The notes beneath the pieces are model-generated. The model had not been told where the DNA came from, did not search any database, and worked only from the letters and a program-made list of their open reading frames with translations. Shown here in pieces: positions 32,412 to 46,754 of a DNA stretch of 64,000 nucleotides. This DNA comes from Arcobacter sp. Its GTDB lineage: Bacteria > Acidobacteriota > Terriglobia > Bryobacterales > Bryobacteraceae. The first letter of the stretch is position 1. Every line of letters begins with the position of its first letter. Made by a program: the position numbers and the translations under genes. The DNA is taken from positions 92,911 through 156,910 of the forward strand of contig DYJN01000001.1 in the NCBI GenBank assembly GCA_020723085.1, in the 5' to 3' direction.

Positions 32412-33419
32412 ATGCTGCGGATCGTTGCCTTGCTCGCCTGCTCGGCGGCTGCCTCGGGGCTGCCGGCGCAGCCCCTCAAAATGGTTTTTGTTGACACGGA
32501 AGGCGGTCAGGCGACCCTGATCCTCACTCCTCGCGGAGAATCGCTGCTTGTGGATGCGGGTTTCCCGGGCAACAACGGGCGGGACTCGGACCGGATCGTC
32601 GCGGCGGCTCGGAAGCTCGGGCTCCAGCGCATCGACTGGCTGCTGGTGACGCACTACCACCTGGATCACGTCGGCGGGGTGCCGGAGCTGGCGGCCAAAT
32701 TCCCCATCGGCACGTTCATCGACCACGGAGACAACACGGAGACCTCCCCGCAGGCCAGGGCGCTTGAGGAAGCCTACCGCAAAGTGCTTGCCACCGGAGC
32801 CAGACGCATGACGGTCAAGCCGGGCGACGTGCTCCCGCTGAAAGATGTCCGGATCGAGATCGTCGCGGCGCGGGGCGAAAGGATCGCCAAGGCCATCCGG
32901 GGCGGCGGTCAGAAGAATCCGCTCTGTGCCACGGCGGAACGCAAGGCTGACGATCCAACGGAAAACGCGCGCTCCATCGGCTTCATCCTCACCTTTGGCC
33001 GGTTCCGTTTTGCCGATCTTGCCGATCTGACCTGGAACAAGGAACTCGAACTCGCCTGTCCGGAGCACCTTATCGGTCCGGTGGACCTCTACCTGACCAC
33101 GCATCACGGACTCGACCAGAGCGGCTGCCCGCAGATCGTCCACGGGATGCGCCCCCGCGTCGCCATCATGAACAACGGCGCCCGCAAAGGCGGCTCGCCC
33201 TCGGCGTGGCGCATCGTCTCCTCTTCACCGGGGCTCGAGGACCTCTGGCAGCTCCACTATTCTCTGGCAGGCGGAAAAGAGGCCAACGTGGCCGAAGAGC
33301 GGATCGCCAACCTCGAGCCTGACTGCCAGGGCTTCGGCATTGAAGTGGAGGCGGCGCGGGACCGCGTGATCGTGGTGCGCAACCAGCGCAACAATTACTC
33401 CAAAACGTACCGCCCGTGA
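32412..33419 (+). CDS. secreted MBL-fold metallohydrolase
   Basis: The 335-residue protein has a signal peptide (MLRIVALLACSAAASGLPAQ) and a metallo-beta-lactamase fold with the metal ligands HYHLDH at residues 81-86. The layout (KMVFVDTEGGQATLILTP at the start, LVDAG near 47) resembles the ComEC-like competence/exonuclease-type MBL proteins and not true beta-lactamases. It probably hydrolyses a phosphoester or lactone in the periplasm; the substrate is unknown. It is followed by the acylation cluster with a 39-bp gap. Confidence 0.85.
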   Translation: MLRIVALLACSAAASGLPAQPLKMVFVDTEGGQATLILTPRGESLLVDAGFPGNNGRDSDRIVAAARKLGLQRIDWLLVTHYHLDHVGGVPELAAKFPIGTFIDHGDNTETSPQARALEEAYRKVLATGARRMTVKPGDVLPLKDVRIEIVAARGERIAKAIRGGGQKNPLCATAERKADDPTENARSIGFILTFGRFRFADLADLTWNKELELACPEHLIGPVDLYLTTHHGLDQSGCPQIVHGMRPRVAIMNNGARKGGSPSAWRIVSSSPGLEDLWQLHYSLAGGKEANVAEERIANLEPDCQGFGIEVEAARDRVIVVRNQRNNYSKTYRP

Positions 33420-33458: not shown

Positions 33459-34871
33459 GTGCGCATGCTCCTCTCAAGTTCTGTCTATTTCGTTTTCCTT
33501 GCCGGGGTCTTCTTCCTCTACTGGCCGCTGGCGCGGTGGCGCACGGCGTCAGTGGCGGTTCTGTTGTTCGCCAACCTCTTTTTCTACGCCAAGTGGGACC
33601 TGCACTACCTGGCGTTGATCCCCTCGGCGGCGTTCCTCGACTACCTCATCGGCCTCGGCCTTGGCGCCAGCCGCAGCCGCCCGTTGCGGCGCCTGTTGGT
33701 GACGGCGAGCATTGTTTTGAATCTCGGCCTGCTGGCGGCGTTCAAGTACATGCCCTTCTTCCTCGGCGCCTGGGCCGCCGCCGCGGGCGGCAAGGCGCCC
33801 GAATGGCACTGGGTCTTCCCGCTGGGCCTCTCCTTCTACTGCTTCCAGGCGATGACCTACACCATCGACCTCTACCGCCGCGATGGCAAGCCCGTGCGCA
33901 GCCTGCTGGCGCACATGACCGCGGTCACCTTCTTCCCTACCACGCTGAGCGGCCCCATCACGCGCGTGCTGGCGCTGGCGCCGCAACTGGAAAAGAAGGA
34001 CAAGACGGTCCTGCCCGAGGACAGCGGGCGCGCCTTCTGGCGCATCGGACTCGGGCTTCTGAAAAAGTTCCTCATCGCCGACTATCTGGCGGAAAACCTC
34101 GTCAACCGCGTCTTCGACACGCCGGGGCTGTACACCGGCATGGAGACCCTGATCGGCGTCTACGCCTACGCCGCTCAGCTCTACTATGACTTCTCCGGCT
34201 ACACGGACATCGCCATCGGCAGCGCGCTCCTGCTGGGCATCCGGCTGCCGGAGAACTTCAACCGCCCCTATCTGGCGCTGAATATCAGCGAGTTCTGGCG
34301 GCGCTGGCACATCAGCCTGTCCAACTGGCTGCGGGATTACCTTTACTTCTCGCTGCCAGGGCTCCGGTCGAAGCGGAAATGGCCCGCCTACGGGAATCTC
34401 TTCGTGACCATGCTGCTCGGCGGGCTGTGGCACGGTCCCGCCTGGACGTTCGTCGTCTGGGGCGCGCTGCATGGCGTTGCGCTGGCCATTCACCACGGCT
34501 TCCGCGCCGCGCGCGGCAATCCCCCGCCCGGCGGCTGGCCCGCACGGCTCCTGAGCCGGCTGCTGACGGCGCACTTCGTGATCTTCGCGTGGATCTTCTT
34601 CCGTGCATCGTCGCTCGAAAACGCCTTCGAGGTGCTCGGCAGGATCGGATCCCTCACGGTCAGCTTCGCCAACATCTCGCTTCCCATTGCGGTGGTCCTG
34701 CTCATCGCCGTGGCGGCGCACTACCTGCCCAAGCGGTGGGCCGGGTGGTGCGCGGCTCTTTACGCGCGCTCGCCGTTTTACGCGCAGGCGGCGGCGCTGG
34801 CGCTGCTCGTGCTGGCTATCGAATATGTCGCCATCACGGGCGCGGCGCCGTTCCTGTACACGCAGTTCTGA
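33459..34871 (+). CDS. MBOAT-family membrane O-acyltransferase (AlgI/DltB-like)
   Basis: The 470-residue polytopic protein matches the MBOAT family. The catalytic His is His325 in LWHGPAWTF, followed by a second conserved His338 in ALHG; FWRRWHISLSNWLRDYLY is the PF03062 signature. AlgI-type proteins move acyl groups across the inner membrane onto exported sugars, and DltB does so from an acyl carrier protein. Start is GTG at 33459, with an ATG two codons inside as an alternative. It heads a run of five co-directional genes with an SGNH pair, an ACP and a KASIII-like gene, which suggests carrier-dependent surface O-acylation. Confidence 0.93.
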   Translation: MRMLLSSSVYFVFLAGVFFLYWPLARWRTASVAVLLFANLFFYAKWDLHYLALIPSAAFLDYLIGLGLGASRSRPLRRLLVTASIVLNLGLLAAFKYMPFFLGAWAAAAGGKAPEWHWVFPLGLSFYCFQAMTYTIDLYRRDGKPVRSLLAHMTAVTFFPTTLSGPITRVLALAPQLEKKDKTVLPEDSGRAFWRIGLGLLKKFLIADYLAENLVNRVFDTPGLYTGMETLIGVYAYAAQLYYDFSGYTDIAIGSALLLGIRLPENFNRPYLALNISEFWRRWHISLSNWLRDYLYFSLPGLRSKRKWPAYGNLFVTMLLGGLWHGPAWTFVVWGALHGVALAIHHGFRAARGNPPPGGWPARLLSRLLTAHFVIFAWIFFRASSLENAFEVLGRIGSLTVSFANISLPIAVVLLIAVAAHYLPKRWAGWCAALYARSPFYAQAAALALLVLAIEYVAITGAAPFLYTQF

Positions 34872-34878
34872 GGATGCT

Positions 34879-36267
34879 ATGAGACCGCCCTGGCCCCTGA
34901 AACCCCTCGTGGTGCTGGTCACGTTCGGCCTGCTGATCACGCTGCCGCAGTACATTCCGCAGTGGTACAACTGGCGCGTCTATGAATGGCGCTCGGCCTC
35001 TTCACTGTTCGATTTCCAGCCCCGGATGCGGAAGGCGAACCCGGTGGAAGAGGAGCTCGCCCGGCTCCGTCCAGCCGCGCCTCAGCCCGGGCAGGATCCG
35101 CTGAAGATCGCCGACCCGCACGGGGCGATGGAAGCGTTCTACGCGAGCCTCCTGCGCACGGAGCGCGGCGAGTCCGGCGCCGTGACGCGCATTTTGCACT
35201 ACGGCGATTCGCCCGTCACCGCCGATCTGATCACCGCCGACGCCCGTTCCCTGTTGCAGGACCGCTTCGGCGACGCCGGGCACGGCGCCTATCTGATCGC
35301 CAAACCCTGGGCCTGGTATGCTCATCGCGGCGTCGATGTCAAAGCCGGCGGCTGGAAGGCCGATCCCGCCACGCTGCGCGGCCAGAAGGACGGCTGGTAC
35401 GGCCTGGGCGGCGTCAGCTTCACCGGCGACACCGGCGCATACAGCAGGCTCCGCCTGAAGCGGCCCGGCCACACCCGGCTGACCCTCTCCTACGTGGCGC
35501 AGCCCGGCGGCGGAGATCTCTGGATTCTGGCCGGGGACATCGAAGCCGGCGTGCTGGACACGGCTGCCCCGGAGACGGCGGCCGCTCAGCAGACGTTCGA
35601 CATTCCGCCGGAGGCGCAGGAGATCGAAATCCGCGTCACCCGCGGCCCCGTGCGCCTGTTCCAGGTGGAGTTGTTCAAGCCCAATCCCGGCATCGTCTAC
35701 GACAGCATCGGCTTGAACGGCACCTGGGCCGGCGTTCTCGCCTGGCACATGAACGCCCGCCATTGGGCCGGACAGTTGCGGCAGGCGCGGCCGAATCTCG
35801 TCATCATTCAATACGGAACCAACGAGAGCGGCTACCGCAAGTACATTGACTCCACGTACCCGCGGGATGTCAGGGAGATCATCGCCCGTGTCCGCGCAGC
35901 CGTGCCGGAGGCATCCATCCTGATCATGAGCCCCATGGACCGTGGCGTGCGCGAAGACAGCGGCGTCATCGGCACCGTGCCTTCCATCCCCCATTTGGTG
36001 GCTGTGCAGGCCAAGCTGGCCGCGGAAAACGGATGCGCCTTCTTCAATACGTTTGAAGCCATGGGAGGCCCGGGCACCATGGGCAAGTGGTACATGGCCG
36101 AACCCCGCCTCGTCAGCGCGGACTTCATCCACCCCCTGCCCGCCGGAGGGCGCATCGTGGGCACGCTGCTTTACAATGCCCTTATGGACGGCTTCAACGC
36201 CTACAAGCTGCGGCTGCTGCGCCAGACCGTCGCCGCGGACCGACAGCCCGGGACGGTCAAGCCCTGA
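34879..36267 (+). CDS. membrane-anchored SGNH/GDSL acyl-handling protein
   Basis: The 462-residue protein has one N-terminal membrane helix (about 8-25) and then a periplasmic SGNH domain. HYGDSP holds the block I Asp-Ser (residues 110-111), QYGTNESGY the block III Asn near 315, and DFIHPLPAGG the block V Asp/His (about 415 and 418). A beta-rich insert sits between blocks I and III. In alginate or peptidoglycan acetylation, SGNH partners (AlgJ/AlgX-like) hand the acyl group from MBOAT to the polymer. It follows the MBOAT gene by 7 bp. Confidence 0.88.
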   Translation: MRPPWPLKPLVVLVTFGLLITLPQYIPQWYNWRVYEWRSASSLFDFQPRMRKANPVEEELARLRPAAPQPGQDPLKIADPHGAMEAFYASLLRTERGESGAVTRILHYGDSPVTADLITADARSLLQDRFGDAGHGAYLIAKPWAWYAHRGVDVKAGGWKADPATLRGQKDGWYGLGGVSFTGDTGAYSRLRLKRPGHTRLTLSYVAQPGGGDLWILAGDIEAGVLDTAAPETAAAQQTFDIPPEAQEIEIRVTRGPVRLFQVELFKPNPGIVYDSIGLNGTWAGVLAWHMNARHWAGQLRQARPNLVIIQYGTNESGYRKYIDSTYPRDVREIIARVRAAVPEASILIMSPMDRGVREDSGVIGTVPSIPHLVAVQAKLAAENGCAFFNTFEAMGGPGTMGKWYMAEPRLVSADFIHPLPAGGRIVGTLLYNALMDGFNAYKLRLLRQTVAADRQPGTVKP

Positions 36268-37638
36268 ATGAAGAGGACCCTTCTGCGCGTGGCCCTGTTG
36301 GCGATGGCGATGTCCGCTGCGCCCGTCTTGCCGCAGAGTTCCCCCTCCAAGCGACCCTCCGCCACGGCGAAGAAAACGTCGTCGAAATCCTCCGCCAGGC
36401 GGCGCCGGCCCGTTCCCAGGCCGCCGCGGGTGTCCCCCCAAGCCAGGGCCGAAGCAGCGGCCGCTGTGGAGTCGCGCATCAAAACGGCGCCCGAAACCGG
36501 CATCGAAAACGCCGCCGCCATGGTGCCGCTCTACGAATTGATGTACCGTCAGGAGAATCACGTCGAGAACGGCCAGCCGCTCCGCGTGCTGCAGTTCGGC
36601 GACTCTCATACGGCCGCCGACGACTGGCCCGGCCAGTTGCGCACCCGCTTCCAGCAGCGCTTTGGCTCCGGCGGCCCCGGCTTCGTTCAGGCCGGCCGCC
36701 CCTACGCCGGCTTCCGCCGCCTCGATGCGAAGTCCGCCATGTCCCGCGGCTGGCAGACGCTCGGAGGCGTCCGGGGCGGCGACGGATTCGACGGCATCGC
36801 CGGCGTCAGCCTCGCCGCTGCCAGGGCGGGCGAGACGCTTTCTCTGGAAGCCGAAGGAGAAGTGCTCGAGTTCTTCTACTGGAACCAGCCCGGCGGCGGC
36901 TCCTTCGCTCTCGAGGACAACGGCGCGCTTCTCGGCGAAATCTCCACCGATGGCCCTTTGGGCCCCGGCTACTTCCGGAAGGATCTGGCCGCGGGCGTCC
37001 ATTCCCTCACGCTGCGCACTCTCACCGCCGCGCCCGTCCGGGTCTTCGGGTGGGTGCTCGAACACCGCAGCGGCATCACCTGGGAGACGCTCGGCCTCAA
37101 CGGCGCGCAGGCCGGCCTGCTGCTGAAACAGGACGCCGCCCTGCTCAAGGACCACATCGCCCGCCGCAATCCCGCCCTGATTCTCGTCGCGTACGGCACC
37201 AACGAATCGCGCCGCAAAGACTGGACTCTCGAGAGCTATCAGCAGACTCTGGACGGCGTGCTCCGCCTGCTCAGGGAAGCCGCGCCCGTGGCCAGCATTC
37301 TCGTCGTCGGCGCGCCGGATCAGTTCATCCGCACCCGCCGCTCCGCTGTTCCTCCTTCCGGCGCCGGCCAGGTTCTGGAGGCGCAGCGGAAGGCCGCCCT
37401 GGAGCACCGTTGCGCCTTCTGGAACCTCCGCGCCGCCATGGGCGGGCCCGGCTCGATGAAACAGTGGGTCCGCGCCGGTCTGGCGCAGGGCGACTACGTC
37501 CATCTCACCGCCGCCGGCTACCGCCTGGTAGGGGACGCTCTGTACGATCTGATCCTCGGACAATACGGCATTTTTGTGACCATCCGCAATAAAATCATGG
37601 GAGAAAACGGCAATGGATCGCCGGTCAAAACTCATTGA
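36268..37638 (+). CDS. second SGNH/GDSL protein, exported
   Basis: The 456-residue protein has a signal peptide (MKRTLLRVALLAMAMSAAPVL), a Lys/Arg/Pro-rich basic linker to about 60, and an SGNH domain: FGDSHTAAD with Asp-Ser at 112-113, AYGTNESRR near 309 and GDYVHLTAAGY with Asp/His near 409 and 412. The ATG follows the upstream stop directly, with no gap. Domain plan is like its neighbour (beta-rich insert between blocks) but the sequence is clearly diverged, so the pair likely arose by old duplication and may divide labour. Its 3' end overlaps the ACP gene by 26 bp. Confidence 0.88.
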   Translation: MKRTLLRVALLAMAMSAAPVLPQSSPSKRPSATAKKTSSKSSARRRRPVPRPPRVSPQARAEAAAAVESRIKTAPETGIENAAAMVPLYELMYRQENHVENGQPLRVLQFGDSHTAADDWPGQLRTRFQQRFGSGGPGFVQAGRPYAGFRRLDAKSAMSRGWQTLGGVRGGDGFDGIAGVSLAAARAGETLSLEAEGEVLEFFYWNQPGGGSFALEDNGALLGEISTDGPLGPGYFRKDLAAGVHSLTLRTLTAAPVRVFGWVLEHRSGITWETLGLNGAQAGLLLKQDAALLKDHIARRNPALILVAYGTNESRRKDWTLESYQQTLDGVLRLLREAAPVASILVVGAPDQFIRTRRSAVPPSGAGQVLEAQRKAALEHRCAFWNLRAAMGGPGSMKQWVRAGLAQGDYVHLTAAGYRLVGDALYDLILGQYGIFVTIRNKIMGENGNGSPVKTH

Positions 37639-37846
37639 AATCCTGAAGTCCGTGACAAAAAAAGACGTGGATATCGCCCCGGACGAGTCTCTTTTCGAAT
37701 CCGGCATCCTGGATTCGTTCGCCCTGCCGGACCTCGTCAGCGCCCTGGAGCAGGAGTTCTCCATCGAGATCCCGGACTCCCACCTGAACCCCCGCAAGTT
37801 CGAGTCCATCGAGCGCATTGAGGAATACCTGGATTCGAGGGCCTGA
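37613..37846 (+). CDS. acyl carrier protein
   Basis: The 77-residue acidic protein has the carrier fold of four helices. The phosphopantetheine site is Ser35 in GILDSFALPDL, where Asp34-Ser35 is the DS signature. The size and the sequence LFESGILDS resemble DltC-like specialised carriers more than the fatty-acid AcpP, whose motif is DSLD. The ATG at 37613 lies inside the upstream SGNH gene, so translation is likely coupled. Together with the KASIII-like gene 6 bp later, it suggests that the MBOAT here draws its acyl group from a carrier protein. Confidence 0.92.
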   Translation: MDRRSKLIEILKSVTKKDVDIAPDESLFESGILDSFALPDLVSALEQEFSIEIPDSHLNPRKFESIERIEEYLDSRA

Positions 37847-37852
37847 CCGGAA

Positions 37853-38785
37853 ATGGCATTTATCAAAGAATTTGGCTGCTGGCTCCCGGAGCACATCGTC
37901 ACGAGCGAGGAGGCTGGCTCGTGGGTCGGCTCTGACGCCGAATGGGTCAGGAACGTTTCCGGCATCGACGAACGGCGATTCGCGCCGGAGTCCGACACGG
38001 TGGCCGGCTTGGCGGCGCGCGCCGGCGCGGATTGCCTCCGGAGGGCTGGAATGAGAGCGAAGGACTTGGGAATGGTCTTCGTCGCCAGCGGGACATCGGA
38101 GCGGGCATTCCCCGGCCCGGCGTGCACTGCGGCGCGCCTCCTCGGCGCGGAAGGCGTGCCCGCGGTGGACGTCCCCATGGCCAGCGCCGGTTCGCTGTTC
38201 GCTCTCGCTTTGGCCTCCCGGCTGGCGGCGCAGCTCGGGGCGATCCTTGTCATCGGCGCCGAAAAGATGTCGCGCGTGGTGCTGCGCGAGCCGCGCGAGA
38301 AGGGCGTCGCCATCCTGTTCGGCGACGGCGCCGGCGCCTGCCTGGTGACGCCCGATGCGGGACGCTCCGAGATCGTGGACTCCATCCTCTGTTCGGATGG
38401 AACCCACGCCGAGGATCTGATGCTGGAAAACGGCGCTCCGCTCAAGATGAACGGCCGCAGCGTCATCTTGCACGCCTCGCGCAAGATCCCCGCCGTCATC
38501 CGCGCCGTGCTCGACCGGAACAAGGTCCCTCCCGCCGAAGTGCAGACCTACCTTCTCCACCAGGCCAACCAGAACCTGCTGGACAGGATCGCCTCGGCCT
38601 TGGGCATCGCTTCGGAGCGCTTCTTTTCCAACATCCGCCGCTACGGCAACACCTCGTCGGCTTCCATGCTGATCGCCGCCTGCGAGTGGTGCCGCGCCGA
38701 GGGCTTCCGCCCCGGCGCGCCGGTGGTCTTCGGCGCGTTCGGCGCCGGCTTCCATTGGGGCGCGTTGCTCGCCCGCGGCGTCTGA
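37853..38785 (+). CDS. KASIII (FabH)-like protein with Ser at the Cys position
   Basis: The 310-residue protein aligns with 3-oxoacyl-ACP synthase III along its length. The His and Asn of the triad are visible (His236 in LLHQANQN, Asn266 in YGNTSSAS), but the catalytic Cys of E. coli FabH is replaced by Ser111: DVPMASAGS against DVAAACAGF. Ser variants exist in natural-product pathways, such as DpsC, and act as acyltransferases or priming units. Here it probably loads or elongates an acyl group on the adjacent ACP; that is inference. It begins 6 bp after the ACP gene. Confidence 0.9.
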   Translation: MAFIKEFGCWLPEHIVTSEEAGSWVGSDAEWVRNVSGIDERRFAPESDTVAGLAARAGADCLRRAGMRAKDLGMVFVASGTSERAFPGPACTAARLLGAEGVPAVDVPMASAGSLFALALASRLAAQLGAILVIGAEKMSRVVLREPREKGVAILFGDGAGACLVTPDAGRSEIVDSILCSDGTHAEDLMLENGAPLKMNGRSVILHASRKIPAVIRAVLDRNKVPPAEVQTYLLHQANQNLLDRIASALGIASERFFSNIRRYGNTSSASMLIAACEWCRAEGFRPGAPVVFGAFGAGFHWGALLARGV

Positions 38786-38815: not shown

Positions 38816-39262
38816 ATGAAGAGCATGGGCAAGCGCTGGGTCCGCTGGGCTTTTCTGGGCATCTTGGTTGTTTTCGCCGGAATGCAGGCAGTCCGGCCGG
38901 AGAGGATCAACCCGCCCGTAAAAGCCGAATTCACTCTCGCGGCGCAATACGAAGTGCCCGGCGAGGTGATGGCCATTCTGGAGCGCTCCTGCGGGGACTG
39001 CCACTCCAACCGCACCCGCTGGCCTTGGTACAGCCATGTGGCGCCCGCTTCCTGGCTTCTGGCCGATCACGTCAAAGACGGGCGCCGCCATTTCAACATC
39101 GATGACTTCACGGAAGAGATGTCGCTCAAGGATGTCTGCCAGGAGATCCGCGTCGGCTCCATGCCCCTCATGAACTACCTGCTGCTTCATCCCGGGGCGA
39201 AGCTGGCGGGTTCGGAGATCCAGACCGTCTGCGCATGGACGAGCGGCGCAAAGGCGAAATGA
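38816..39262 (+). CDS. haem-binding domain membrane protein
   Basis: The 148-residue protein has an N-terminal membrane anchor (about 9-25) and a periplasmic domain with one CxxCH haem-attachment site, CGDCHSNRTRWPWYSHV, close to the haem-binding domain family that carries CxxCH and a downstream Trp/Tyr cluster. It would be a membrane-bound c-type cytochrome-like protein with a redox role. It follows the acylation cluster by 30 bp in the same direction, but no functional tie is visible. An alternative ATG lies 3 codons inside. Confidence 0.87.
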   Translation: MKSMGKRWVRWAFLGILVVFAGMQAVRPERINPPVKAEFTLAAQYEVPGEVMAILERSCGDCHSNRTRWPWYSHVAPASWLLADHVKDGRRHFNIDDFTEEMSLKDVCQEIRVGSMPLMNYLLLHPGAKLAGSEIQTVCAWTSGAKAK

Positions 39263-39325
39263 GCCGCCCGCCGCGCTGCCCGCGGCCCGCGATTGCGGGA
39301 AACTGAGAATGGAGGCCTGATCGGA

Positions 39326-39616
39326 ATGCCGGAAGACAAACCCAGGCGCATGGTTCACTGCGCCAAGCTCGGGCGGGAAATGGAAGGGCTTGACGAGGTC
39401 CCCTTCGACAACCATCCGCTGGGGCGGAAGATCTACGAGAACGTGTCCAAAGAGGCGTGGCGCATGTGGGTCGAGCATATGAAGATGATCATGAACGAGT
39501 ACCGCCTCAACCTCGGCACCCGCGAGGCCCAGGAGTTCCTGCTCAAGCAGATGGAGCAGTACTTCTTCGGCGAAGGCGCGCAACTGCCCCCCGACTACGT
39601 CCCGCCGCAACACTGA
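39326..39616 (+). CDS. yggX: YggX-like Fe(II)-trafficking protein
   Basis: The 96-residue protein carries the YggX pattern: MVHCAKLGREMEGLDEVPF, then LGRKIYENVSKEAWRMWVEHMKM and the C-terminal hydrophobic helix. In enteric bacteria YggX protects iron-sulfur clusters and handles iron. The start at 39326 has a GGAGG site about 10 bases upstream; a start further upstream would add a short tail outside the family. It sits between the haem-binding gene and a BNR-repeat gene. Confidence 0.9.
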   Translation: MPEDKPRRMVHCAKLGREMEGLDEVPFDNHPLGRKIYENVSKEAWRMWVEHMKMIMNEYRLNLGTREAQEFLLKQMEQYFFGEGAQLPPDYVPPQH

Positions 39617-44300: not shown

Positions 44301-44489
44301 GTGAAACAGAGGAGGATTCGTGCGCCCAAGCGCGGAACGCCGAGCGCCACCACGCAAGAGATCATCGAGCACCTGCTGCGCCTGGCCGATCCGGACCGCC
44401 GGGATGACCCGGAGGCCGACACGACCATGCCGGTGATGATGCGCGTCCAGCGGCGAGTCATCCGCGAGGCGGTGAAGGAGAGGCCGTGA
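44301..44489 (+). CDS. small element protein of unknown function
   Basis: The 62-residue basic protein (MKQRRIRAPKRGTPSATTQE...) precedes the primase remnant and overlaps it by 4 bp, as small regulatory or accessory genes do in phages and satellites. No domain is recognised. It is annotated for its position and coupling only. Confidence 0.5.
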   Translation: MKQRRIRAPKRGTPSATTQEIIEHLLRLADPDRRDDPEADTTMPVMMRVQRRVIREAVKERP

Positions 44490-45618
44490 ACTTGGCGGTC
44501 CATTTCCATAGCCGCCTGGCGCCGCCGGAGGTCTCCGCATACTATCGCGTGCGCATGCCGGACCTCGAGCAGCTCGGCAGCGAGTGGCGGGCGGGCTGTC
44601 CAATCCACAAAGGCGAGGATTCGAACTTCTCGGCCAACGCCGAAACCGGATTGTGGATGTGCCACAGCCAGTGCGGGCGCGGTGGCCCGGTGTACGACCT
44701 GGAGATTGCGCTCACCGGCGCTGACTTTCCCGACGCCGCGCCTGCAGTGCGCCGCATCATCGGCAGGCCGGACTCGCGCCCGGCCGCAGTGGAACCGCAG
44801 ATGAAGTGGGGCTTGCTTGGCTGGCAGCACGAGTATCTGCGCAAGCGCATCGAGAAAGTGGAAGCCGGGCATGGATGGAAGCACAGCGCGGCCTACCCAT
44901 GCTTCGAAGCCGATGGCCGCTTTTCTGATGTGAAGGTCCGTTTCATCGACAAGCAGAACGACAAGACCTTCCGGCAGTACGCCCTCTCATCCAGCGGTGG
45001 CTGGATCTCGCGGAGGAAGGCGGGCAAGCAGCCGATCCTGTACCGTCTGAACACGCCCGCTGCCGCGGATGAGATCTTCATTGTGAACGGCGAGAAAGCG
45101 GCCGGCCGGGGCGCAGCCGAACTCCGCATCGTGACCGCCTGCGCGCCCGGCGGCGAGGGCAAATGGTGCGCCGAGTATACGAAGCCGAGGGCATCCTGGC
45201 CTGGGCTGTGGAGGGCGCGAAACTCTGGTGGCAACATGGTCTCGGCAAGCCGCCCGAGGTCGTGGCTGCCAACGGCGGCTGGCGCGCGGAGAACGACCAG
45301 CTTGGCCGGCTCATCGAGGAGCGCTGCGTGCTTGCCGAGTCCTTCAACGGCAAGGCCCGCCAACTCTACGAATGCTATCGCGCGCGGGCGGAGGGCGCGG
45401 GCGAGAACGCCATCTCCGAGACTCTATTCGGCAGGCGGCTGAAGGATCGGGGCTTTGCGAAGGAGCATCGACGTTACGGCGCGGTCTATGCCGGCATCGC
45501 TCTACGGGCCCAAGACGGCGCCTCGGCAGAAGAGGTGCGACGGGTTTGCGGCGTGACGGGTTGTGATGCCTTTTTTCAAAACATCCGTTGCCCCGCGCAT
45601 ATAAGGACCATTTCTTAG
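44486..45618 (+). pseudogene. P4-type primase-helicase remnant with internal deletion
   Basis: The 5' part (GTG at 44486) encodes a CHC2-type zinc finger (Cys38, His41, Cys59, Cys63) and the beginning of a toprim domain (EIFIVNGEKAA). Near 45160 the reading frame breaks. The 3' part, in another frame up to 45618, encodes the C-terminal end of a P4-family primase/helicase (EGILAWAVEGAKLWWQHGLG, then LIEERCVL and FGRRLKDRGF). The core of the toprim domain and the whole SF3 helicase are missing, so a deletion plus frameshift has joined the ends. The product cannot replicate DNA. Confidence 0.85.
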
Positions 45619-45770: not shown

Positions 45771-46004
45771 CTACAGATCCTCGGGCTTGAGGCCGGTCTT
45801 TTTCGCGAGGACTTTCATCGCCGCAGGGCCGAGCGTGACCCGGTCATGGTAGGCGAACAAGAGATCGGGCCAGCCGGGACGTTCCAGGATACGGTGGGAG
45901 GTTCCGCTTTGGCGTTTGATGCGCCAGCCGATTCGAAGCAGAGCCGCCAAGGCCCGCTTGGCCTTGGTGGACGGCCAACTCTGAGGAGGCTCTTCAGGCC
46001 GCAA
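45771..46004 (-). CDS. hicA: HicA-type mRNA interferase toxin
   Basis: The 77-residue protein has the HicA pattern: a helix (KAKRALAALLRIGW), then RQSGTSHRIL with the catalytic His, and a short C-terminal helix. HicA cleaves mRNA after double-stranded-RNA-like folding. No ATG fits; the likely start is TTG at 46004, 11 bp inside the hicB gene. It follows hicB, so the order is hicB-hicA, the less usual one. Confidence 0.8.
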   Translation of the reverse strand: MRPEEPPQSWPSTKAKRALAALLRIGWRIKRQSGTSHRILERPGWPDLLFAYHDRVTLGPAAMKVLAKKTGLKPEDL

Positions 46005-46227
46005 CGAAGGATACGTCCATGGGGCCGGGAACCGCTTCGCCGTGTTCCAGGCGGTCAGCAATGAGCCTGAGCGCTAGCGCCTGCGCGGCGGCGGTCGCCT
46101 GCTTCTTGGTCCGCCCATACGCCGTAACGCCGGGCAGGGCCGGGATGTCCGCCAACCAGCGGCCATCCTCCTCCCGGTAGTACTCGATAGTGAGCGAGAA
46201 TCGGTTCGCCGATGGACGTTTCGGCAT
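45994..46227 (-). CDS. hicB: HicB-family antitoxin
   Basis: The 77-residue protein has the HicB fold: LTIEYYREEDGRWLADIPALPG, followed by TKKQATAAAQALALRLIADR. This is the partial RNase-H-like core that binds HicA. No C-terminal DNA-binding helix-turn-helix is seen, so autoregulation may be weak or done by another protein. The ATG at 46227 was chosen because upstream in-frame residues are not protein-like. Confidence 0.83.
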   Translation of the reverse strand: MPKRPSANRFSLTIEYYREEDGRWLADIPALPGVTAYGRTKKQATAAAQALALRLIADRLEHGEAVPGPMDVSFVAA

Positions 46228-46280
46228 AACTATATCTTCCCACCAAACCTGATCCAGAAAAACGCCGGTGTGAATCGACC

Positions 46281-46754
46281 ATGAGCAGCAGACCCGACAA
46301 GCCGCTGATGACCCAGGCTGAGTACGCCCGGCACCGCGGCAAGAGCCCACAGTACATCAACAAGCTGGCCAGGGCTGGCATCCTCGTGATGCGGGGTCGC
46401 TTGGTGGACGCCGCCGCGTCGGACGCTGTGCTGGATGACAAGCCCGACGAGGGTTCCGCTGGCCAGCAGCCCGCCACGTTCGCCCAGGCGCGCCTGGCGC
46501 GCGAAGTCTTCTCCGCGAAGCGGAAGAAACTGGAGTACGAGACGCGGATCGGAAAGCCCGCGCCGACTGACGAGGTCAGCATCAAGTGGTACACGCTGGG
46601 CCGTCAGATCCGTAACCGCGTGCTCGGGATCGCCGGCAAGCTCGCGCCGCAATTGGCCGCCGAAACCGATGTGCGCCGCGTCCGCGAGATCCTCGACGCC
46701 AAGTTGACGGCCATCCTGAAGGGACTCGCCGAGGACATCCGCCATGGGGCTTGA
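46281..46754 (+). CDS. phage terminase small subunit-like protein (Nu1 type)
   Basis: The 157-residue protein has an N-terminal helix-turn-helix (QAEYARHRGKSPQYINKLARAG, as in Nu1/MerR-like heads) and a long charged helix (LAREVFSAKRKKLEYE) typical of oligomerising terminase small subunits, which recognise the packaging site. Its stop overlaps the large terminase start by 11 bp, which supports the assignment. Confidence 0.82.
   Translation: MSSRPDKPLMTQAEYARHRGKSPQYINKLARAGILVMRGRLVDAAASDAVLDDKPDEGSAGQQPATFAQARLAREVFSAKRKKLEYETRIGKPAPTDEVSIKWYTLGRQIRNRVLGIAGKLAPQLAAETDVRRVREILDAKLTAILKGLAEDIRHGA

Follow-up and report, generated by a model that had tools for sequence, protein, structure and literature searches.

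A candidate carrier-dependent surface acylation cluster with a KASIII-family protein in the loader position

We analyzed a stretch of 64,000 nucleotides (hereafter the window; positions 92,911 to 156,910 of contig DYJN01000001.1, assembly GCA_020723085.1, deposited as Arcobacter sp. and placed by GTDB in the Bryobacteraceae of the Acidobacteriota), in which five adjoining genes encode an MBOAT membrane acyltransferase, two SGNH proteins (SGNH1 and SGNH2), an acyl carrier protein (ACP) and a KASIII-family protein with Ser at the position of the catalytic Cys (Ser-KASIII). Judging from sequence comparisons, we think it probable that these genes form a dedicated carrier-dependent surface acylation system, with a KASIII-derived loader standing where the Dlt pathway has DltA. 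A narrower version of this proposal, an ATP-free carrier route in which the Ser-His-Asn KASIII would act as an acyl-CoA:carrier transacylase, the MBOAT donor would have changed from coenzyme A (CoA) to the carrier, and a non-acetate acyl group would end up on peptidoglycan, seems to us evenly poised between right and wrong.

Conservation and co-occurrence of the five genes

All five open reading frames lie on the + strand with intergenic gaps of 7, 0, -26 and 6 bp, a spacing that would fit co-transcription. Their number, coordinates, strand and gaps had been listed in an initial annotation of the window and were borne out by our open reading frame check and by Pfam, whose matches all exceed the curated cut-offs (MBOAT, 100.3 bits; Lipase_GDSL_2, 58.9 bits in SGNH1 and 52.0 bits in SGNH2; PP-binding, 41.3 bits in the carrier; ACP_syn_III_C, 86.8 bits in the KASIII). 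Gathering relatives of the KASIII from contig records and phylum genomes, we examined 48 distinct contigs by tblastn (loci are labeled L, genomes G). The order MBOAT-SGNH1-SGNH2-ACP-KASIII on one strand was found on 29 of the 48 distinct contigs carrying this KASIII, a count that includes two loci whose end gene is cut by the contig end (MBOAT at L042, KASIII at L053). Three contigs are cut before the order becomes readable (L032, L034, L045) and 16 are variants: ACP-KASIII alone at seven loci (L047, L048, L049, L052, L116, L120, L158), SGNH2-ACP-KASIII at L037 and L050, ACP-KASIII facing the other cluster genes at four loci (L124, L165, L167, L168), ACP-KASIII near a generic MBOAT at L166, and single cases at L036 and L041 that lack an ACP and a full MBOAT nearby, respectively. 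No two of the 48 KASIII sequences are identical, and one pair (L042, L043) exceeds 95% identity. The initial annotation had let its proposal hang on whether the five-gene order recurs in relatives; with 29 of 48 contigs keeping it, the order is conserved in two families of one class and rearranged in further families (L165, L167, L168), which are known only as members of the same phylum.

A spread of the subfamily beyond this phylum found no support in our scans. Among the matches listed in a contig scan, 23 rows reached at least 49% identity, all titled Acidobacteriota or groups within it. At a strict threshold for the Ser profile, we found 0 of 349 genomes in the phylum of an alphaproteobacterial locus, 0 of 121 in that of a Gemmatimonadales locus and 1 of 240 in that of a verrucomicrobial locus, this one being a Cys FabH (L178); the scans were run without a positive control from these phyla and would overlook the Cys subfamily.

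Genome content connects the genes even where they are not neighbors. Across 61 relatives, Ser-KASIII occurs in 15 genomes and this type of MBOAT (at least 414 bits; next score 291) in 17, with all 15 carrying both (Fisher p = 2e-12, without kinship correction), and the association holds within the family (14/0/2/21, p = 2e-8). The two relatives with this MBOAT type and without Ser-KASIII are G015, where the MBOAT runs off the contig end, and G023, whose cluster (L129, G023:C493) retains MBOAT-SGNH1-SGNH2-ACP without a KASIII, other DNA with a DDE transposase lying beyond the ACP. At L145 (G023:C271), away from the ACP-bearing cluster, G023 also has a solitary KASIII that belongs to the MBOAT-associated family and is of Cys type, possibly a natural replacement. 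Seven genomes have an ACP-KASIII pair on its own, and each of them carries the MBOAT-SGNH1-SGNH2 trio at another place (L126, L127, L169-L173), and 15 other MBOAT loci (L130-L144) gave no match to the cluster ACP or KASIII queries. Distances between KASIII sequences follow those of MBOAT (Mantel r 0.90), SGNH1 (0.88) and SGNH2 (0.86), with 0 of 999 permutations reaching each value.

A profile scan for the MBOAT across the phylum gave a similar picture, with 16 of 396 genomes scoring at least 521 bits and all others at most 440 (four candidates scored per genome). Eleven of these 16 fall among the 13 Ser-KASIII genomes of the phylum search; of the other two Ser-KASIII genomes, G196 has its MBOAT cut at the contig end and G160 has only a generic MBOAT. 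The five high-scoring genomes without Ser-KASIII are G123, G135 and G398, G350, where the fetched 17 kb contain an ACP but no KASIII, and G252, where the contig ends. The initial annotation had regarded a role of carrier and KASIII unrelated to MBOAT as fatal to its model, and what we see is co-occurrence of these genes at genome level even when they are unlinked. A chance neighborhood is rejected by the conserved order together with this co-occurrence in genomes where the genes are split.

Predicted roles of the proteins

The KASIII-family protein (37853-38785, +; Pfam ACP_syn_III) was modeled with a mean predicted local distance difference test score (pLDDT) of 94.6, and its structural matches are FabH structures; no DpsC entry stands among the 50 structure matches listed, the nearest solved proteins being FabH-type enzymes. 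The catalytic Cys of solved KASIII enzymes aligns with Ser111 (38183-38185), which is found in all 48 sequences of the window's subfamily. His236 and Asn266 accompany it in all 47 sequences that can be read there (L053 is truncated), an invariance of the three residues that holds down to ~45% identity. This subfamily thus lacks the Cys-His-Asn triad of FabH/KASIII condensing enzymes, and Cys is present in all 73 other KASIII rows compared, one of which (L016) belongs to a sister Cys subfamily. Where FabH usually has Arg, the window protein has Asn241, and at the position of E. coli Arg249, a docking residue, the subfamily has Asn (45), His (1) or Val (1). The position of E. coli Phe87, a residue that narrows the acyl pocket, is Phe in 42 of 48 sequences, which suggests that the acyl group may be short. 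We rejected the idea that this KASIII is the housekeeping FabH, since another KASIII, of Cys type, is encoded in the same genome (G000:C1, L125) and the Ser sequences form a clade of their own with full support.

The sister Cys-type KASIII occurs in the order SGNH2-MBOAT-SGNH1-ACP-KASIII in three genomes of deeper Acidobacteriota (G123, motif MACCN; G135, AACCN; G398, AACAT, with one extra gene ahead of the ACP). In our tree, the 39 Ser rows have as their sister clade four Cys-type sequences, among them that of G023, and the union of both types is separated from 17 FabH rows with support 100/100. Because the Cys-type sequences are the sister clade, Ser is, on this tree, the derived state within one MBOAT-associated KASIII family. 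Transacylation is an activity that the Ser and Cys forms could share. The initial annotation had left it between making and loading an acyl group; we favor loading as what the protein probably does, because the condensing Cys has been lost and DpsC provides a precedent for Ser in a KASIII scaffold, where, according to PMC12664062, the Ser self-acylates and then transfers to its ACP. Making the group becomes unlikely with the loss of Cys, with the reservation that the sister Cys form exists.

The carrier (37613-37846, +; Pfam PP-binding) overlaps the SGNH2 gene by 26 bp and has its phosphopantetheine site at Ser35 in a D-S-F motif (37715-37717), invariant in 25 rows. Its best match in the PDB is DltC (49.0 bits, compared with about 25 for E. 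coli ACP), which supports the comparison with Dlt drawn in the initial annotation, although the NCBIfam DltC score of 47.3 lies below the cut-off of 68. The carrier at another locus, L182, gives a PP-binding match of 21.8 bits. One phosphopantetheinyl transferase match (ACPS-family, PF01648) is present in the window's genome, which by its nearest named relatives would belong to the Bryobacterales.

The MBOAT (33465-34871, +; PF03062) is the sole PF03062 match in its genome, and its best solved match is DltB; with the DltB family model TIGR04091 it scores 182.7 bits, below the cut-off of 375. The frame opening at GTG 33459, from which the initial annotation read it and from which residues are counted here, does exist; ATG 33465 is the more likely start, because the proteins of relatives start MLLSS. 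His284 (34308-34310) and His325 (34431-34433) are invariant in 23 rows, and His325 aligns with DltB His336. A C-terminal FxYxxF motif (FLYTQF, 34851-34868, with Tyr467 at 34857-34859) is found in 39 of 39 cluster MBOATs and also in 17 other MBOATs of the phylum, whereas an LGG(N/S)(R/Q) loop is present in 15 of these 17 and in none of the 39 (the MBOAT of G135, in the Cys group, has LGGLR). This loop aligns to the HC helix of DltB, which binds DltC according to passages of PMC11035591, with PMC9338922 in agreement. The Tyr of FxYxxF becomes auto-acetylated in PatA, as a passage of PMC12148441 describes, and the presence of this transmembrane acyl-shuttle motif lends support to the earlier suggestion that the MBOAT may move the acyl group across the membrane.

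SGNH1 (34879-36267, +) and SGNH2 (36268-37638, +) are both placed by Pfam with GDSL_2 proteins and both resemble the peptidoglycan O-acetylesterase Ape1 in PDB comparisons, with sequence-profile matches of 100.5 bits for SGNH1 and 178.7 bits for SGNH2. A model of SGNH1 (mean pLDDT 85.5) has Ape1 as its fold match, its SGNH domain carrying an inserted beta-sandwich. Ser, Asn, Asp and His residues of the SGNH type are invariant in both proteins (SGNH1 Ser111, Asn315, Asp415 and His418 in 17 rows; SGNH2 Ser113, Asn312, Asp409 and His412 in 16 rows), and the Pfam scan matched neither to PatB/DUF459 or to the DltD family. Each has one hydrophobic N-terminal stretch, which by eye looks like a membrane anchor in SGNH1 and like a signal peptide in SGNH2, and both are predicted to be periplasmic. 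The SGNH partners of the initial annotation are thus present, while its view of both as transferases is less secure, as the Ape1 esterase type of the two proteins means that one may remove rather than add an acyl group.

The flanks add to the question of the acceptor in one family. We compared the flanks of 28 loci, mostly of Bryobacteraceae type, up to 7 kb or as far as the contig reached (a set that leaves aside Acidobacteriaceae L159-L164). The Bryobacteraceae-type flanks are not conserved, and even the commonest flanking family occurs at just 7 of the 28 loci. No reductase, alginate-type or polysaccharide-locus family recurs there as judged by eye, and a polysaccharide locus in the flanks was rejected on this comparison. 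All seven Acidobacteriaceae-type loci (L051, L159-L164) have a DPBB_1 'lytic transglycolase' gene divergent from the MBOAT, recognized by Pfam at 76-87 bits in five (L159, L160, L161, L163, L164) and by motif alone in L051 and L162. This lytic-transglycosylase-like neighbor points to the cell wall as the site of action in these loci; it strengthens the guess at the acceptor and leaves the odds of the overall model unchanged. Where the initial annotation had spoken of a polymer, peptidoglycan is now our leading guess, because of the Ape1 fold of the SGNH proteins and of this neighbor in one family. At L187, another such gene follows a generic MBOAT at a distance of 1.5 kb downstream.

Put together, the proposed pathway would begin with a phosphopantetheinyl transferase attaching phosphopantetheine to Ser35 of the DltC-like carrier. 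The KASIII would then move a short acyl group from acyl-CoA onto its Ser111 and hand it to the carrier, an ATP-free counterpart of the step carried out by DltA in the Dlt pathway. On the cytoplasmic side, the loaded carrier would dock with the MBOAT, which has a donor loop unlike that of the phylum's other MBOATs. By analogy with PatA and DltB/DltX, the MBOAT would shift the acyl group to Tyr467 of FxYxxF. Membrane-anchored SGNH1 would take the group from Tyr467 and esterify a periplasmic glycan, most likely peptidoglycan, and periplasmic SGNH2, the closer of the two to Ape1, would serve as a second transferase or as an esterase that trims the modification.

Competing explanations and neighboring features

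Several observations weigh against a dedicated system with a loading KASIII. The cluster at L036 is without an ACP, and L041 and L050 have no full MBOAT within the locus, which is what was searched; G160 combines Ser-KASIII with a generic MBOAT; and shared species history alone can yield correlated trees and co-occurrence. The lytic-transglycosylase-like neighbor speaks for one family only, the DPBB_1 motif not having been seen at the other cluster loci scanned, and ACP-KASIII pairs near flagellar or sugar-nucleotide genes could serve another pathway. On the side of chemistry, FabH uses His and Asn for malonyl decarboxylation, and both residues are kept in the Ser form, while in G123, G135 and G398 the same set of genes comes with the sister Cys-type KASIII, so that condensation is possible there.

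These last points bear on an explanation that we consider unlikely, namely that the window's KASIII truly condenses, or descends from a condenser with its job intact, so that a 3-oxoacyl group would be made on the carrier and exported by the MBOAT. It draws on the complete Cys-His-Asn site of the sister subfamily, on the retention of His236 and Asn266 in all 47 readable Ser forms, and on a passage of PMC3927599 in which pairs of ACP and KASIII genes make acyl groups for flagellin glycans in Pseudomonas syringae. It has to contend with Ser in every one of the 48 subfamily members, with the lack, by eye, of a recurring reductase family in the flanks of the 28 loci, and with BioZ, a KASIII that, going by the title of its structure, was crystallized as C115S with its glutaryl-CoA substrate, which suggests that Ser is not enough for full turnover there.

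Still less probable, in our estimate, is that the ACP and KASIII work in a separate pathway of glycan or flagellin acylation and are mere operon neighbors of an acetyl-CoA-dependent MBOAT-SGNH pair. Several genomes do have ACP-KASIII pairs without an MBOAT in the vicinity of fliW, fliD-like, flagellin or GDP-sugar genes (L116, L120, L048, L049), and flagellin accompanies Ser-KASIII in 15 of 15 of the 61 relatives, against 24 of the 46 others (p = 4e-4); yet within the family, where 34 of 37 genomes have flagellin, the contrast shrinks to 14 of 14 with and 20 of 23 without Ser-KASIII (p = 0.27). Flagella as the target were rejected, flagellin being non-discriminating within the family and the wider contrast explicable by kinship. 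Against a separate pathway also stand the MBOAT trio in 7 of 7 lone-pair genomes, the 15 MBOAT loci without matches to cluster ACP or KASIII, the DltC-like nature of the carrier, and an MBOAT donor loop that differs just where a carrier would dock. The idea that the KASIII is a catalytically dead acyl-CoA-binding or regulatory protein is very improbable: Cys-to-Ser replacement can inactivate condensing enzymes, as the BioZ C115S title would allow, but a dead site would be expected to drift, and Ser, His and Asn are all held constant down to the most distant members.

Other features of the window were noted around the cluster. A metallo-beta-lactamase-fold protein lies directly upstream (32412-33419, +), and 5 of 28 loci, counting that of the window, have a relative of it close to the cluster; a haem-binding domain protein and an Fe(2+)-trafficking family protein follow just downstream (38816-39616, +). 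Farther away (45771-46350, -), a HicA toxin-like open reading frame (29.2 bits; cut-off 27) is overlapped by a HicB-like one (UPF0150, 20.1 bits, below the cut-off), with a tRNA-Gly ~1.5 kb away and a CHC2 zinc-finger primase-like open reading frame in the same region (44486-45442); this region is possibly a small mobile element. In one Acidobacteriaceae genome (L162, 9499-12081, +), the KASIII gene is followed 37 bp downstream by a gene for an AMP-binding ligase in fusion with carrier and acyltransferase domains.

Relation to known acylation systems

The initial annotation knew of no described pathway with exactly this set of genes, and our keyword search of the open-licence literature agrees, with no paper describing it among the matches listed. 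According to a passage of PMC12148441, non-Dlt MBOAT-SGNH pathways work without a carrier, those of the PatA/PatB/Ape1 kind using acetyl-CoA. If the proposed system is real, it would be a third way of feeding MBOAT-SGNH machines, ATP-free and carrier-dependent; it would break that carrier-less rule by joining a fused shuttle motif and a dedicated carrier in one system, show the recruitment of a condensing enzyme for loading, and imply that Acidobacteriota, a phylum common in soil, have a surface ester yet to be studied. Naturally split genomes (3+2 genes) and the pair of Cys and Ser subfamilies allow direct tests of what each part does.

To our knowledge, neither a carrier nor a KASIII is part of the AlgI/AlgJ/AlgX system of alginate O-acetylation, whose SGNH proteins are also of a different type; no alginate-type gene recurs by eye in the flanks of the 28 loci. 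The likeness lies in the use of one MBOAT with two SGNH-type proteins, as given in a passage of PMC9487903. DpsC shares with the cluster KASIII the fold and the Ser nucleophile and is an acyl-CoA:ACP acyltransferase (PMC12664062), an activity that the cluster protein would share, whereas its triad is Ser-His-Asp rather than Ser-His-Asn (Asn266 in 47 of 47 readable rows). With PatA/PatB/Ape1, the cluster has in common the fused C-terminal FxYxxF of the MBOAT, the Ape1-fold SGNH proteins and the adjoining MBOAT and SGNH genes (a passage of PMC1199599); it differs in the added carrier and KASIII, in the donor loop, whose LGGNR type is absent from 39 of 39 cluster MBOATs, and in having no PatB/DUF459 match. 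The Dlt pathway has, as is proposed here, an MBOAT fed by a dedicated DltC-type carrier, together with an SGNH partner and an acyl-Tyr shuttle motif (a passage of PMC12148441). Here, however, there is no DltA among the five genes, which alone were searched for it, and no room among them for DltX, the shuttle motif being fused to the MBOAT; a KASIII-family protein occupies the loader position, and two Ape1-type SGNH proteins without a DltD family match take the place of one partner. The parts therefore belong to a known kind, MBOAT-SGNH acylation, and their combination differs from each known member compared: the carrier resembles that of Dlt and the fused shuttle that of Pat, and the proposed KASIII-derived loader has a counterpart in neither of them.

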